Source of the DNA: Epibacterium sp. Ofav1-8
Lineage (GTDB): Bacteria; Pseudomonadota; Alphaproteobacteria; Rhodobacterales; Rhodobacteraceae
NCBI RefSeq assembly: GCF_022348185.1
Contig: NZ_JAKRFD010000008.1
Coordinates: 124,001-188,000, forward strand
Direction: 5' to 3'
DNA: 64,000 nucleotides
The position numbers were made by a program, and so were the translations under genes. The notes under the pieces are model-generated. The model was not told where the DNA came from, searched no databases, and saw only the letters and a program-made list of their open reading frames with translations. Below are positions 1 to 46,586 of this stretch, piece after piece (the first letter of the stretch is position 1; the number at the start of each line of letters is the position of its first letter).

Positions 1-66
1 GGCGCCTGCTATAACGAGACCTTCGTGGAGCTGCGCGCCTATGGCGGGCATCACGCGGCCGAGTAG
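1..66 (+). CDS. 3' end of an unidentified protein
   Basis: An open frame enters from the left edge and ends with TAG at 64-66. Only the last 21 residues are visible, ending in GGHHAAE. No motif is long enough to name a family. About 80 bases separate it from the next gene on the same strand. It could also be chance, but codon use fits the high-GC coding style of the window. Confidence 0.5.
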   Translation, partial: GACYNETFVELRAYGGHHAAE

Positions 67-144: not shown

Positions 145-1575
145 TTGGCTTTGGATCACTCTGAACGGACCAATTCCATGCCCGGTGACACGCCCGCCTT
201 CATGCCGGATCGCACGTCAGATGTGCCGATCTTTGAGCAGATCTGTGCCTCGTTTCGGGGCCGTATCCGCTCCGGCGCGCTTGAGACCGGTGCCCGGCTG
301 CCCGCCACCCGCGCGCTCGCGGGGGATCTGGGGGTGGCGCGGGCCACGGTGGTCACCGCCTATGAACAGCTCGTCGCAGAAGGTTATCTCGCGTCGCGTC
401 GCGGTTCTGGTTACACGGTCTGCGCCATGGGTGAGGTGGAGCTGTCACCGGGCGCATCCGCAGCCCCTGCGCCCAAACTCAGCGAACGCGGCGATCTGCT
501 GCTGGAGGCGGGCCAGCCCGATATGCGGCTGTTTCCGCATCGTGCCTGGGCGAAATGCGTCGCGCGCCTGTGCCGGACCCGGCCCGAGGACATGCTGACG
601 GGCTGTGGCCGCTTTGGTCACCCGGAGCTGCGGCAGGCCATCGCCAGCCACGTGCGCGACTGGCGCGGGATCGCGGCACGTCCCGAACAGGTGCTGGTGA
701 CCTCTGGTGCGACCGAGGCGCTGGACATCTGCCTGCATGCGCTGGCCTCGGCTGAGGGCCGCGTCGGTGTCGAGGATCCGGGCTACCCGCCGATCCGCCG
801 CTTTGCCGAGGCACAGGGCCGCCGCACCCGCGATCTGGCGTTGGATGCGCAGGGGGCAGAGGTGCCGAGGCTTGGGGATGAGACCGATGTGGTGGTGCTC
901 ACCCCCTCGCATCAATATCCGCTGGGCGGCGCGATGAGTGCGGGCCGACGGCAAGAGTTCGTGCGCTGGGCGGCGCAGTCGCAGGGCTGGATCATCGAGG
1001 ACGATTACGATTCGGAGTTCCGCTACGCAGGCCGACCGATTCCGGCGCTGGCGGGCGTCGACGGGCAGGGGCGCACCGTCTACATCGGCAGCTTTTCCAA
1101 GATCTTCTCCAACAGCCTGCGGATGGGTTACATCGTGGCGCCCGAGGGGCTGATCGACCGGCTTGCGCAGGCGATGCGCATGAAGGGCGCGCGGGCCAGC
1201 GCCATGCCGCAGGCGGCACTGGCAGAGTTCATGCAGCGCGGCGAGTTCTACCGCCACCTGCGCCGCGTGCGCCGCACCTACGCCGAAAGACACCGCACGC
1301 TCATCGACCGCTTACGCCGGGATTTTGCCGATGTGGGTCACGTGGAGGATCATCACGCGGGCATGCAAGTGGTGCTGCACCTGCGCCCGGAGCTGTGCGA
1401 TCAGGCCATCACCGCGGCAGCCCGCGCGGGCGGGGTGGGGGCGGAATCGCTCTCGACCTACAGCCGTCGCGCCGGGGCATATAATGGGGTGGTTCTGGGG
1501 GCCTGTCTCAACGATCTGGAGGAGCAGGCAGAGGCGCTCACACACCTGCGGCGGGCGATTTCCTCAACAGGATAA
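145..1575 (+). CDS. MocR/PdxR-type GntR regulator with aminotransferase domain
   Basis: A 476-residue fusion. Residues about 27-95 form a GntR winged helix-turn-helix (LPATRALAGDLGVARATV). Residues about 110-470 form a fold-type I aminotransferase domain with the PLP lysine at K319 in the motif GSFSK. Proteins of this family sense PLP or an amino compound and do not act as real transaminases; many regulate pyridoxal or amino-acid/amine genes. The TTG at 145 was chosen because GAGG lies 7 bases upstream; an in-frame ATG at 178 lacks a ribosome site. No divergent partner gene is visible, so the target is unknown. Confidence 0.85.
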   Translation: MALDHSERTNSMPGDTPAFMPDRTSDVPIFEQICASFRGRIRSGALETGARLPATRALAGDLGVARATVVTAYEQLVAEGYLASRRGSGYTVCAMGEVELSPGASAAPAPKLSERGDLLLEAGQPDMRLFPHRAWAKCVARLCRTRPEDMLTGCGRFGHPELRQAIASHVRDWRGIAARPEQVLVTSGATEALDICLHALASAEGRVGVEDPGYPPIRRFAEAQGRRTRDLALDAQGAEVPRLGDETDVVVLTPSHQYPLGGAMSAGRRQEFVRWAAQSQGWIIEDDYDSEFRYAGRPIPALAGVDGQGRTVYIGSFSKIFSNSLRMGYIVAPEGLIDRLAQAMRMKGARASAMPQAALAEFMQRGEFYRHLRRVRRTYAERHRTLIDRLRRDFADVGHVEDHHAGMQVVLHLRPELCDQAITAAARAGGVGAESLSTYSRRAGAYNGVVLGACLNDLEEQAEALTHLRRAISSTG

Positions 1576-42803: not shown

Positions 42804-44453
42804 ATGACCGACCAAACGCCGGAAACGTCCGACGGCATCCCAAGCCCGGACGGCGCAGCACATATCATCGAAACGGAATATGAAATCGGCCAGGACAATG
42901 TGGAGGGGTCTGTCGGCCCGTTGGGGTTTGACATCCACAACCCGGTCTTTGCCATTTCGGGCCTCGCGATCGTGGCCTTTGTGTTTTACACGCTTGCCCT
43001 GCCAGAGCAGGCGGGCTCCATTTTCTCCTGGCTGTTCAGCACGGTCACCAAGGGCTTTGACTGGTTCTTCCTCGGTGCCGCGAATATCTTTGTGATCTTC
43101 TGTCTGTTCCTGATCGTGACGCCCTTTGGCAACGTCAGGCTGGGCGGCACCGAAGCAGAGCCCGACTACAGCTATATCGGCTGGTTCGCGATGCTGTTCG
43201 CAGCCGGTATGGGCATCGGTCTGATGTTCTACGGCGTTTCTGAACCGCTGAGCCACTTTGCATCCTCCATGGGCGGCACCGCCGCCGAGGATGGGGTGCG
43301 CACCGACTGGGCACCGCTGGGGGCCGCCGGGGGCGACGAGGCCGCAGCCGTGCGTCTGGGCATGGCGGCGACGATCTTTCACTGGGGTCTGCACCCCTGG
43401 GCGATCTATGCCGTGGTGGCGCTGGCGCTGGCCCTGTTCAGCTACAACAAGGGTCTGCCGCTGACCATCCGCTCTGCCTTCTACCCGATCTTTGGGGATG
43501 CGGTCTGGGGCTGGGTTGGTCACGTGATCGACATCCTGGCGGTGTTTGCAACGCTGTTTGGCCTGGCGACCTCGCTCGGCTTTGGCGCGACGCAGGCCAA
43601 CGCGGGTCTGAACGAGCTGTTTGGCATTGCGGTCAGTTCCACCACCGAGGTGATCCTGATTTCGGCCATTACCGCGATCGCGCTGGTCTCGGTCATGCGC
43701 GGCCTCGATGGCGGCGTGAAGGTGCTGTCCGAGATCAACATGGGTCTGGCGTTCCTGCTGCTGATCTTTGTGCTGCTGGTGGGTCCGACCGTGTTCCTGC
43801 TGTCGCTGTTCTGGGATTCGCTGCTGGCCTATCTGCAGTTCCTGCCGGCGTTGTCGAACCCGGTGGGGCGTGAGGACGTCAACTTCATGCAGGGCTGGAC
43901 CTCGTTCTACTGGGCCTGGTGGATTTCCTGGTCGCCGTTTGTGGGCATGTTCATCGCCCGCGTCAGCCGGGGCCGCACCGTGCGGGAGTTCATCACCTGC
44001 GTGCTGCTGATCCCGTCGCTGGTCTGCGTGTTGTGGATGAGCGTCTTTGGCGGCACCGCGATGTTCCAGGTGATCTCCGATGGCTACACCGCCGCGCAAG
44101 AGGCGGACCTGCCGGTGAAGCTGTTCAAGATGCTCGACGTGATGCCGCTGGCCGGGATCACCTCGCTGGTGGGCATCGTTCTGGTCATCGTGTTCTTCGT
44201 GACCTCCTCGGACTCCGGCTCGCTGGTGATCGACACCATCACTGCGGGCGGCAAGGTCGACGCGCCGGTGCCGCAGCGGGCGTTCTGGTGCATCTTTGAG
44301 GGTGCGGTGGCGATCGTGCTGCTGCTGAGCGCCGGAGGCTTGCAGTCGCTGCAGTCGATGGTGATCTCCACCGGCCTGCCGTTCACGGTGGTGCTGCTGG
44401 TAATGTGCTACGCGATCCTGCGGGGCCTGATGAGCGAGCGCAAGAACACCTGA
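42804..44453 (+). CDS. BCCT family betaine/choline/carnitine transporter
   Basis: A 549-residue secondary transporter with about 12 helices for quaternary ammonium compounds such as glycine betaine, choline, carnitine or DMSP. The Trp-rich signature WAWWISWSPFVGMFIARVSRG with following RTVREF is present. The N-terminal tail is short and acidic. AAAGG precedes the ATG. Co-transcribed with the Usp gene and ended by a clear terminator. The substrate cannot be told from sequence. Confidence 0.93.
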   Translation: MTDQTPETSDGIPSPDGAAHIIETEYEIGQDNVEGSVGPLGFDIHNPVFAISGLAIVAFVFYTLALPEQAGSIFSWLFSTVTKGFDWFFLGAANIFVIFCLFLIVTPFGNVRLGGTEAEPDYSYIGWFAMLFAAGMGIGLMFYGVSEPLSHFASSMGGTAAEDGVRTDWAPLGAAGGDEAAAVRLGMAATIFHWGLHPWAIYAVVALALALFSYNKGLPLTIRSAFYPIFGDAVWGWVGHVIDILAVFATLFGLATSLGFGATQANAGLNELFGIAVSSTTEVILISAITAIALVSVMRGLDGGVKVLSEINMGLAFLLLIFVLLVGPTVFLLSLFWDSLLAYLQFLPALSNPVGREDVNFMQGWTSFYWAWWISWSPFVGMFIARVSRGRTVREFITCVLLIPSLVCVLWMSVFGGTAMFQVISDGYTAAQEADLPVKLFKMLDVMPLAGITSLVGIVLVIVFFVTSSDSGSLVIDTITAGGKVDAPVPQRAFWCIFEGAVAIVLLLSAGGLQSLQSMVISTGLPFTVVLLVMCYAILRGLMSERKNT

Positions 44454-44478
44454 GCCGCGAGCCCAGTGTGAAACGAGA

Positions 44479-44504
44479 AACGGCGCCCCGGTGGGCGCCG
44501 TTTT
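44479..44504 (+). terminator. Intrinsic terminator after the BCCT gene
   Basis: Arms ACGGCGCCC and GGGCGCCGT with a 4-base loop, then TTTT. It lies 26 bases past the stop. Confidence 0.9.
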
Positions 44505-44519
44505 GCATTGCTGGTGGGG

Positions 44520-46070
44520 TCAGCCCTTGGCCGGTTTGTCCAGAAGGGCCTGCAACTGGCGGCGCGTCGCCTCGTCCAGCCGGTCCAGATGCACCGTCAG
44601 GCTTTTGCCGTCGGCGCTGGCCTCGGTCGGGGGCAGGGTGCCGGCACGGCCCGGGGCGATGGCATAGGGGTGCACGTCGCGGGTGATGCCCTTGAACTGC
44701 ATCGGCGGCATCGGCTCGGCGGCCACGAAGTCGCGCACATGGGCGTAGGTTTCATGGCTCATCACGATGCCGCCGGGTTCCGCCGCCGCTTCCAGCCGCG
44801 CGGCGAGGTTCGCCTCGGCACCGATGATGGTGTAATCCATCCGCGCCTCGGAGCCGAAGTTGCCGACGTTGCAATAGCCGGTGTTGATGCCGATGCGGGC
44901 GCGGAAGGGGCGGTCGATGCCGCGGGCGCGCCACTCCTGTTCCAGCTCCGCCAGCCGCTCTTGCATCTCCAGCGCCATGCGCACGCAGGCGCGGGCGTCC
45001 TCGGCGGTGCCCAGGGTTTCGGGATCGCCAAAGAAGGCCACGATGGCATCGCCGATGAACTTGTCGATGGTGGCGCCGTGTTTGGCGGCGATCGCCGACA
45101 TCTCGGTGAAATACTCGTTCAGGAGCGCCGTCAGCTCCTCGGGTTGCAGGGTCTCGGCGGTCTGGGTGAAGTCCTTGATGTCGGAAAAGAACACCGTCAG
45201 CTTCTTGCGTTCGGTCGAGATCGAGGCGTCCTTTTCGCCGGAGAAGATCGACCGGTAGACCTGCGGTGACAGGTAGCGCGAGATCTTCATCGAAATGCCG
45301 GCGAGGAATTCGTTGTTGGAGCTCAGCTCCTCGCTGATCTTGCGGAACCGCTGCGCCAGCCGCAGCTGATGCACCGCAAACAGGATACCCAGCCCCCCGA
45401 CCACCACCATATAGAGCAGCAGGTGGCTGAAGGAGAACAGGCTGGTCGCGACCTGCTGGGCGATGCTGTAGGACTGCACGCCGCGGATGTCGCCGACCTG
45501 CCAGTCGGTCTTGGTGCTGTCGGGGTGGCTGTTGTGGCAGGCGACACAGGCCTCCTCCATCACCACCGGGGTCACCATGGTCAGGTGGTGCGAGAACAGC
45601 CCGGCCTCCGCGCCGCGAAAATACAGCAGATGATCCGCGCTGCCGTCACGGTAGAGGCTCAGGGCGCGTTCTTCGGCACTGGTCAGGGTGACGGTCTCAC
45701 GCCCGGCAAAGGGGTAGTCGGAGGCAAAGCGATAGGAGACATCCAGCCCGTGCCCGGCGATCTCGTCGCCCAGTTCGATCGACATGGTGGCCGGGATCGG
45801 GATCGCGCCTGCGCGGTCGTGGTAGTCGTGGGTGGCAATGGTCTGGCCGTCGGGGTCCAGCCGGGCGATGACATTGCGGGCGTAGTAGCCGCGCACGGTG
45901 TCCAGCACCGCGTCCAGCGCCTGGCCCTGGCGGCGCAGGGACTGGTCGGTGATCGCCATCAGGTCGAGCCAGACCACCACCGGCAGGGCGAGGATGGCCA
46001 GCGCCAGCCCCCAGTTGATCAGATGCGGCTGGTTGACGAAAAAGCGCCCGATCCGGCGTTTGAAGGTCAT
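44520..46070 (-). CDS. Membrane adenylate cyclase with heme-type DUF3365 sensor
   Basis: A 516-residue protein. TM1 (about 18-40), a periplasmic DUF3365/Tll0287-like domain with heme motif CVACH (175-179), TM2 (about 212-234), then a class III cyclase domain (about 285-460). Metal Asp are D297 (FFSDIKDFT) and D341 (KFIGDAIVAFFG); K337 favours ATP over GTP. It should turn a redox, gas or heme signal outside into cAMP inside. The ATG at 46070 gives a normal start. Its stop is 16 bases from the BCCT terminator. Confidence 0.88.
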   Translation of the reverse strand: MTFKRRIGRFFVNQPHLINWGLALAILALPVVVWLDLMAITDQSLRRQGQALDAVLDTVRGYYARNVIARLDPDGQTIATHDYHDRAGAIPIPATMSIELGDEIAGHGLDVSYRFASDYPFAGRETVTLTSAEERALSLYRDGSADHLLYFRGAEAGLFSHHLTMVTPVVMEEACVACHNSHPDSTKTDWQVGDIRGVQSYSIAQQVATSLFSFSHLLLYMVVVGGLGILFAVHQLRLAQRFRKISEELSSNNEFLAGISMKISRYLSPQVYRSIFSGEKDASISTERKKLTVFFSDIKDFTQTAETLQPEELTALLNEYFTEMSAIAAKHGATIDKFIGDAIVAFFGDPETLGTAEDARACVRMALEMQERLAELEQEWRARGIDRPFRARIGINTGYCNVGNFGSEARMDYTIIGAEANLAARLEAAAEPGGIVMSHETYAHVRDFVAAEPMPPMQFKGITRDVHPYAIAPGRAGTLPPTEASADGKSLTVHLDRLDEATRRQLQALLDKPAKG

Positions 46071-46271: not shown

Positions 46272-46586
46272 ATGCCCGAGTTGATCAAGCTTTACATTCG
46301 CAGCGCCCTCTGGGGGCTGGTGCTGGCGGCGCTGTTCGTGGGCATCCTGCTGTGGTTCAATGTCGCCAACCTCGGGGCGCTGGTGTTCGGCTCCGACGCG
46401 GGTGTCGTCGCGGTGCTGGCGCTGTGGATCTCCAACGCGGTGGTGTTTGGCGGCGTGCAGTTCGGGTTCAAGATCATGGCCATGGCAGAGCGCGACGAGA
46501 CCCCGCGCGGGGGCACTCCGGTGGGCCCGGCGCTGCGTCCGGTTCTGGTGCCGGCCAAGGCGGCAAAGCCGGGCCGTCGCGCCTGA
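46272..46586 (+). CDS. Small membrane protein
   Basis: A 104-residue protein with two membrane helices (about 12-32 and 38-66: LWGLVLAALFVGILLWF and VVAVLALWISNAVVFGGV) and a basic Pro-rich tail. AGGAGAG stands before the ATG. It is divergent from the cyclase gene. I do not recognise a named family. Confidence 0.7.
   Translation: MPELIKLYIRSALWGLVLAALFVGILLWFNVANLGALVFGSDAGVVAVLALWISNAVVFGGVQFGFKIMAMAERDETPRGGTPVGPALRPVLVPAKAAKPGRRA

Follow-up and report, generated by a model that had tools for sequence, protein, structure and literature searches.

A predicted periplasmic sCache_heme sensor joined to a class III adenylate cyclase in Epibacterium sp. Ofav1-8

The stretch of Epibacterium sp. 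Ofav1-8 DNA analyzed here (64,000 nucleotides in full length; hereafter the window) contains an intact gene for a protein of 516 residues, whose ATG lies at position 46070 and whose stop codon ends at position 44520 of the minus strand; this is exactly the span that a preliminary description of the DNA had assigned to it. From its N- to its C-terminus, the encoded protein is predicted to consist of a membrane helix, a periplasmic Tll0287-like domain, a second membrane helix, a long helix, and a class III cyclase (Table 1). A domain search for DUF3365 and the cyclase, as proposed in the same description, found both above their cut-offs: residues 43-203 matched the Tll0287-like family PF11845 (formerly DUF3365) with 57.4 bits (cut-off 24.1), and residues 288-459 matched Guanylate_cyc (PF00211) with 92.8 bits (cut-off 21.9). 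Apart from these two families, no Pfam match was obtained in the protein at E <= 0.01, and HAMP was not listed. Since stretches rich in Lys and Arg precede the hydropathy window 22-40 and follow the window 215-233, the sensor domain is predicted to be periplasmic and the cyclase cytoplasmic. A structural model of the full-length monomer had a mean pLDDT of 83.9 and a pTM of 0.47, and was weak at about residues 261-290 and 401-420.

Table 1. Positions of the receptor gene, its encoded parts, and adjoining features in the window.
Feature	Position	Strand	Evidence
sCache_heme (Tll0287-like) receptor adenylate cyclase gene, 516 aa	44520..46070	minus	translation, Pfam, alignment with 83 other distinct full-length proteins
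first membrane helix, about residues 17-36 (predicted)	45963..46022	minus	top hydropathy window 22-40; model helix 15-68
periplasmic Tll0287-like / sCache_heme domain, residues 43-203 (predicted)	45462..45944	minus	PF11845; fold match 5b82 Tll0287
CxxCH heme c attachment motif CVACH, residues 175-179	45534..45548	minus	translation; complete in 83/84
segment PIPATM, residues 91-96, approximate place of the Cys of stand-alone redox-type members	45783..45800	minus	alignment; register may be off by a few residues
second membrane helix, about residues 211-235 (predicted)	45366..45440	minus	hydropathy window 215-233; model helix 211-264
class III (IIIb-type) cyclase domain, residues 288-459	44694..45209	minus	PF00211; CyaB 3r5g match
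BCCT transporter, convergent neighbor, judged to lie outside the system	42804..44453	plus	PF02028
terminator-like hairpin (putative function) in the gap separating the BCCT gene from the cyclase gene	44477..44504		A-run/T-run at stem foot

The preliminary description had noted one CxxCH motif (CVACH) in a DUF3365-like domain located between two membrane helices, and the PF11845 match together with the two hydropathy peaks bears this out. The Cys residues of this motif are the only ones in the sensor domain (the entire protein possesses Cys only at positions 175, 178, 362, and 400), and when the protein sequence was shuffled 20000 times, any CxxCH motif arose in 13 cases. A ccmE gene is present in the genome from which the window derives. 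When the sensor domain was modeled by itself (pLDDT 88.3), the top Foldseek match was Tll0287 (5b82; E 3.1e-05), the only one with E <= 0.001 among the matches listed. The VIA comparison likewise placed 5b82 at the top with a moderate score (Z 8.2 over 131 residues at 4.5 A), the only match with Z >= 8; it was followed by erWalK (Z 6.2), GSU0935 (3b42; Z 6.1), and GSU0582 (3b47; Z 6.0), which we regard as tied. The latter two proteins, ranks 3 and 4 in VIA, were absent from the 50 Foldseek matches listed. Since a sequence profile of the sensor found no match among PDB chains even at E 10, this domain is linked to solved structures through its fold match alone.

The C-terminal half had been described as a class III cyclase with both metal-binding Asp residues and an ATP-type Lys, and this assignment held. 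The closest solved cyclase domain was CyaB (3r5g; E 2.8e-65), an enzyme of P. aeruginosa that carries MASE2, a different membrane domain, in the place where the window protein possesses its heme sensor. Asp297, Asp341, Lys337, Thr414, Asn421, and Arg425 are present in 84/84 aligned sequences. We take Asp297 and Asp341 to be the metal-coordinating pair, Lys337 the ATP-type Lys acting with the IIIb-type Thr414, and Asn421 and Arg425 the transition-state residues; with these roles, the PF00211 match and all six catalytic residues place the domain among the class III adenylate cyclases of the IIIb type. The window genome contains eight PF00211 matches vs. a single match to PF11845.

A scan of genome contigs yielded 487 stretches encoding a relative, the best 80 of which were kept. 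The alignment of 84 distinct full-length sequences comprises the window protein and 83 others; left out were L001 and L002 (self), L007-L013 (cyclase-only matches), and L020 (identical to L003). The set was picked by full-length match, with start codons guessed from the nearest Met, so that the fusion of sensor and cyclase is kept in it by construction. The CxxCH motif is complete in 83 of the 84 sequences, and the sensor residues Y63, P91, E99, F115, S117, F121, R124, E133, D189, W190, G193, R196, and Q199 occur in all of them. In the exception, L025 (8001-9518; Pseudophaeobacter leonis), Gly replaces the first Cys of the motif while the remaining protein is conserved; it is possible that this protein is a natural single-thioether or heme-less form, or that the change reflects a sequencing error. 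PF11845 (at E <= 0.001) and PF00211 were both found in 42/42 members scanned, the window protein and 41 others. The domains, the fold match, and the conserved residues thus lend good support to the preliminary assignment, which predicts a periplasmic sensor of the heme type fused to an adenylate cyclase.

Relatives occur in, among others, Tritonibacter, Shimia, Aurantimonas, Mesorhizobium, and Bradyrhizobium, and the sensor-cyclase type is sparse. A match covering the sensor was present in 5 of the 198 genomes drawn from the family. Among 289 genomes drawn from the class, the sensor profile matched in eight at E <= 2.3e-70 and in 21 at E <= 1e-20, counts that do not take fusion partners into account. 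In the draw from the phylum, 91 of 249 genomes contained a PF11845 match at E <= 1e-10.

We compared the distal side of the putative heme site in an alignment of 15 members of the cyclase family and 30 wide relatives, the latter chosen for having a CxxCH motif and therefore uninformative on its conservation. The Cys of three short proteins of stand-alone length (L117, L122, and L123) aligns at or beside residues 91-96 of the window protein. A relative encoded by a long ORF (L110) likewise shows a Cys close to this distal position in the alignment, so that in this sample such a Cys is not confined to stand-alone forms. When two relatives were each used as a single query, 5b82 was matched at E 1.3e-09 and 0.015; since both alignments stop short of the axial Cys, the distal place rests on the multiple alignment and is uncertain by a few residues. 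In the 84 sequences, positions 91-95 are identical in 82 to 84 cases, and the residue that follows PIPAT is Leu in 70, Met in seven (among them the window protein), Ala in six, and Phe in one. Within the uncertainty of the alignment register, the cyclase family has no conserved Cys, His, or Met in the region of position 96. Because no Cys or His is conserved there, the distal heme face of the predicted sensor is likely to be open or weakly held, and a sensor switched by a gas or by redox changes would be in keeping with the lack of the axial Cys that redox-type members possess.

Both halves of the protein and their fusion have been catalogued previously, and the window protein is a well-conserved further member of this type. 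A recent preprint (bioRxiv, February 2026; PMC12889525) names the DUF3365/Tll0287-like PF11845 domain sCache_heme, reports the CXXCH motif to be conserved to 99% in one data set and to 99.4% in another, and mentions Guanylate_cyc among the frequent sCache_heme partners (legend to its Fig. 2); the sensor-cyclase architecture as such is thus already known. The window protein belongs to PF11845 above the curated cut-off, possesses a CxxCH motif, and matches the Tll0287 fold. As in the signaling proteins of that report (Cluster 2), its CxxCH-containing Cache domain is flanked by two membrane helices, a signaling output (PF00211) is fused to it, and the axial Cys is absent. The preprint also describes a HAMP-linked signaling member from Pseudomonas azotoformans without an axial Cys, which bound NO, released it slowly (koff 6.25e-4 per s), and formed no stable O2 complex; unlike this protein, the window protein has no HAMP domain listed. 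No cyclase-fused member is found among the proteins assayed in the portions of PMC12889525 considered here, and the open-licence PubMed Central library searched yielded no assay of an sCache_heme protein with a fused cyclase.

Tll0287 of Thermosynechococcus elongatus, the best fold match of the sensor, is a stand-alone protein with Cys/His heme ligation (PMC12889525), whereas the window sensor lacks such a Cys; the stand-alone Cys/His member treated there appears to be redox-like. GSU0582 and GSU0935 (3b47 and 3b42) resemble the predicted sensor as periplasmic heme c sensors of membrane receptors; PMC8396549 reports His/water or His/Met60 ligation for them, and binding of NO and CO. They differ in their chemotaxis output, their swapped dimers, and the possible Met60 ligand, a Met being found at this place in 7/84 sequences of the window family. 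CyaC of Sinorhizobium meliloti, according to PMC10463352 a diheme-b, redox-controlled cyclase that responds to quinones, is likewise an alphaproteobacterial class III adenylate cyclase of the membrane that contains heme and is sensitive to redox state, but its two heme b are bound by a membrane anchor of six helices instead of the periplasmic heme c predicted here. A CyaC-type diheme-b cyclase was considered for the window protein and rejected, its 12 best hydropathy windows falling in two places with PF11845 between them. From the reports on sCache_heme, the GSU proteins, and CyaC, heme-sensing cyclases as such are already known.

The carriers for an analysis of NO-linked genes were the 29 loci judged, by title and similarity, to be from Rhodobacteraceae among the 80 kept (best 80 of 487). 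The family draw of 198 genomes supplied the controls, 193 genomes that are not carriers; the five carriers of this draw were excluded from both groups. The genome of L020 apparently corresponds to G193, one of these carriers, and the control set is untouched by this. We scored nirK by TIGR02376 over its cut-off and NnrS by PF05940 at E <= 1e-30. Without phylogenetic correction, neither gene was enriched: nirK was present in 3/29 carriers vs. 24/193 non-carriers (Fisher p 1.0), and NnrS in 16/29 vs. 83/193 (Fisher p 0.24). Of the five carriers in the family draw, only the window genome (G000) has nirK, and three (G000, G038, and G193) have NnrS. Since the two genes are not enriched in carriers, genome content gives no support to NO as the signal, which we nevertheless regard as a plausible natural one. 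A segment of about 11 kb in the window genome (G000:C11:464454-475635) contains nirK, NnrS, and a cNMP_binding match, and is likely a nitrite/NO gene cluster. With both nirK and NnrS in its genome, the organism may well meet NO.

Taken together, these data make it quite probable in our judgment that the gene encodes a membrane receptor adenylate cyclase, in which a periplasmic heme c Cache sensor switches the cAMP output of a class IIIb cyclase. This reading builds on the computed domains, the fold match, the conservation of the motif and of the catalytic residues, the predicted topology, the ccmE gene, and the nine cNMP_binding matches of the window genome. Counting against it are the lack of enrichment of nirK and NnrS in carriers, the neighbor representatives without NO-linked matches, the altered CxxCH motif of L025, the missing HAMP domain, the moderate fold score with no PDB match of the sensor profile, and the Cys of L110. 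The periplasmic Cache-type domain would hold one covalently bound heme c, with His179 as its proximal ligand and Cys175 and Cys178 forming the thioether bonds; its distal face, with the axial Cys missing, would be open or weakly held. A diatomic ligand (most likely NO) or a redox-driven ligand change may then alter the sensor domain, and the signal would cross the membrane via the second membrane helix, which runs on without a break as a cytoplasmic helix, to the cyclase. The latter presumably acts as a homodimer whose cAMP output changes upon stimulation, and the cAMP formed would be read by one or more CRP-type proteins. That cAMP may report redox state or a gas from outside the cell, as the preliminary description had suggested, is a reasonable inference by analogy with the related sensors (PMC12889525 and PMC8396549). 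The narrower proposal that the protein belongs to a distinct HAMP-less alphaproteobacterial subfamily of sCache_heme cyclases, which has no distal protein ligand and converts periplasmic NO into intracellular cAMP, is a doubtful one at present.

The natural input could instead be the periplasmic redox state, acting through a change of the distal ligand, with NO binding being incidental. A redox-linked ligand switch involving Met60 has been proposed as the signaling mode of Geobacter GSU0582 and GSU0935 in PMC8396549, Met96 of the window protein lies 83 residues ahead of His179 (the spacing of Met60 and His144 in GSU0935 is 84), and the missing enrichment of NO-linked genes in carriers points the same way; the occurrence of Met96 in only 7 of 84 sequences, vs. 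Leu in 70, argues against it, as does the lack of any conserved His, Met, or Cys in this region, whose register is uncertain. We view such a redox-switched receptor as a tenable possibility, though not a probable one; it is a special case of the heme-switched receptor preferred here, and the likelihoods of the two overlap. Alternatively, the heme might be structural, with the cyclase responding to another input, e.g., bicarbonate or a protein partner. Bicarbonate control is known for IIIb-type cyclases, and the window enzyme is of this type by its Thr414 and is near to CyaB; however, the 84 sequences (a set selected for full length) agree without exception at many sensor positions, near to the motif as well as far from it, and we consider a merely structural role of the heme improbable.

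The preliminary description had also pointed to a neighboring transporter for methylated solutes, and the cyclase gene might accordingly work with the BCCT transporter in osmolyte or methylamine metabolism. A BCCT gene indeed adjoins the cyclase gene in the window, and it is also found in L014-L017 (three from Tritonibacter or a Rhodobacteraceae MAG, one from a Phaeobacter sp.). The suggested link did not hold: the two genes are convergent, a hairpin lies between them (-22.5 kcal/mol, z -4.0; an equally stable one was found in 0/200 shuffles), and BCCT was found in just these four of the 80 loci (best 80 of 487). We therefore rejected the transporter as a partner. In four loci from Aurantimonas (L044, L045, L053, and L067), the strand of the cyclase gene also carries, 210-231 bases upstream of it, a gene for an MttB-type trimethylamine methyltransferase (L044 5839-7653, by Pfam), whose cluster also occurs one gene further upstream in Pelagibius L052. 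The direct upstream position in Aurantimonas would speak for a role in methylamine metabolism, but the cluster is present in just 5/80 loci (best 80 of 487), four of them from one genus. Overall, we judge a joint function with the BCCT transporter to be very improbable. In the window, a gene for a small membrane-type protein (46272-46586, plus strand) is divergent from the cyclase gene, and a similar ORF (cluster C40) occupies the same place in L015, L017, L018, and L020. The largest neighbor cluster, a response regulator, is represented at 14 loci (best 80 of 487) and never adjoins the cyclase gene. An AraC-type regulator cluster (its L049 member by Pfam) is located downstream on the same strand in 8/80 loci (best 80 of 487), immediately so in L039, L042, and L049, and beyond two opposite-strand ORFs in the other five; since all eight are from Shimia or other Rhodobacteraceae, the arrangement is clade-specific. 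A Pfam scan of 18 neighbor representatives gave no match linked to NO, and five of the 18 gave no match at all. Several loci possess little flanking sequence, so that the absence of a gene there means little. Because the neighbors change from clade to clade, we rejected an operon or neighborhood meaning, and the comparison of relatives lends the link to methylated solutes no support.

The preferred reading, a heme-switched receptor adenylate cyclase, has a counterpart in the way soluble guanylate cyclase (H-NOX) works, which couples a heme-gas input to a class III cyclase output; that enzyme differs in its cytoplasmic heme b, its unrelated sensor fold, and its product cGMP. If periplasmic NO were indeed converted into cAMP, the window protein would be the outside-in equivalent of that enzyme, with heme c taking the place of heme b. 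Should the receptor respond to NO or redox changes, it would tie the periplasmic gas and redox environment to cAMP signaling in alphaproteobacteria, and it would provide a handy single-protein system (heme in, cAMP out) for Cache heme signaling across the membrane.
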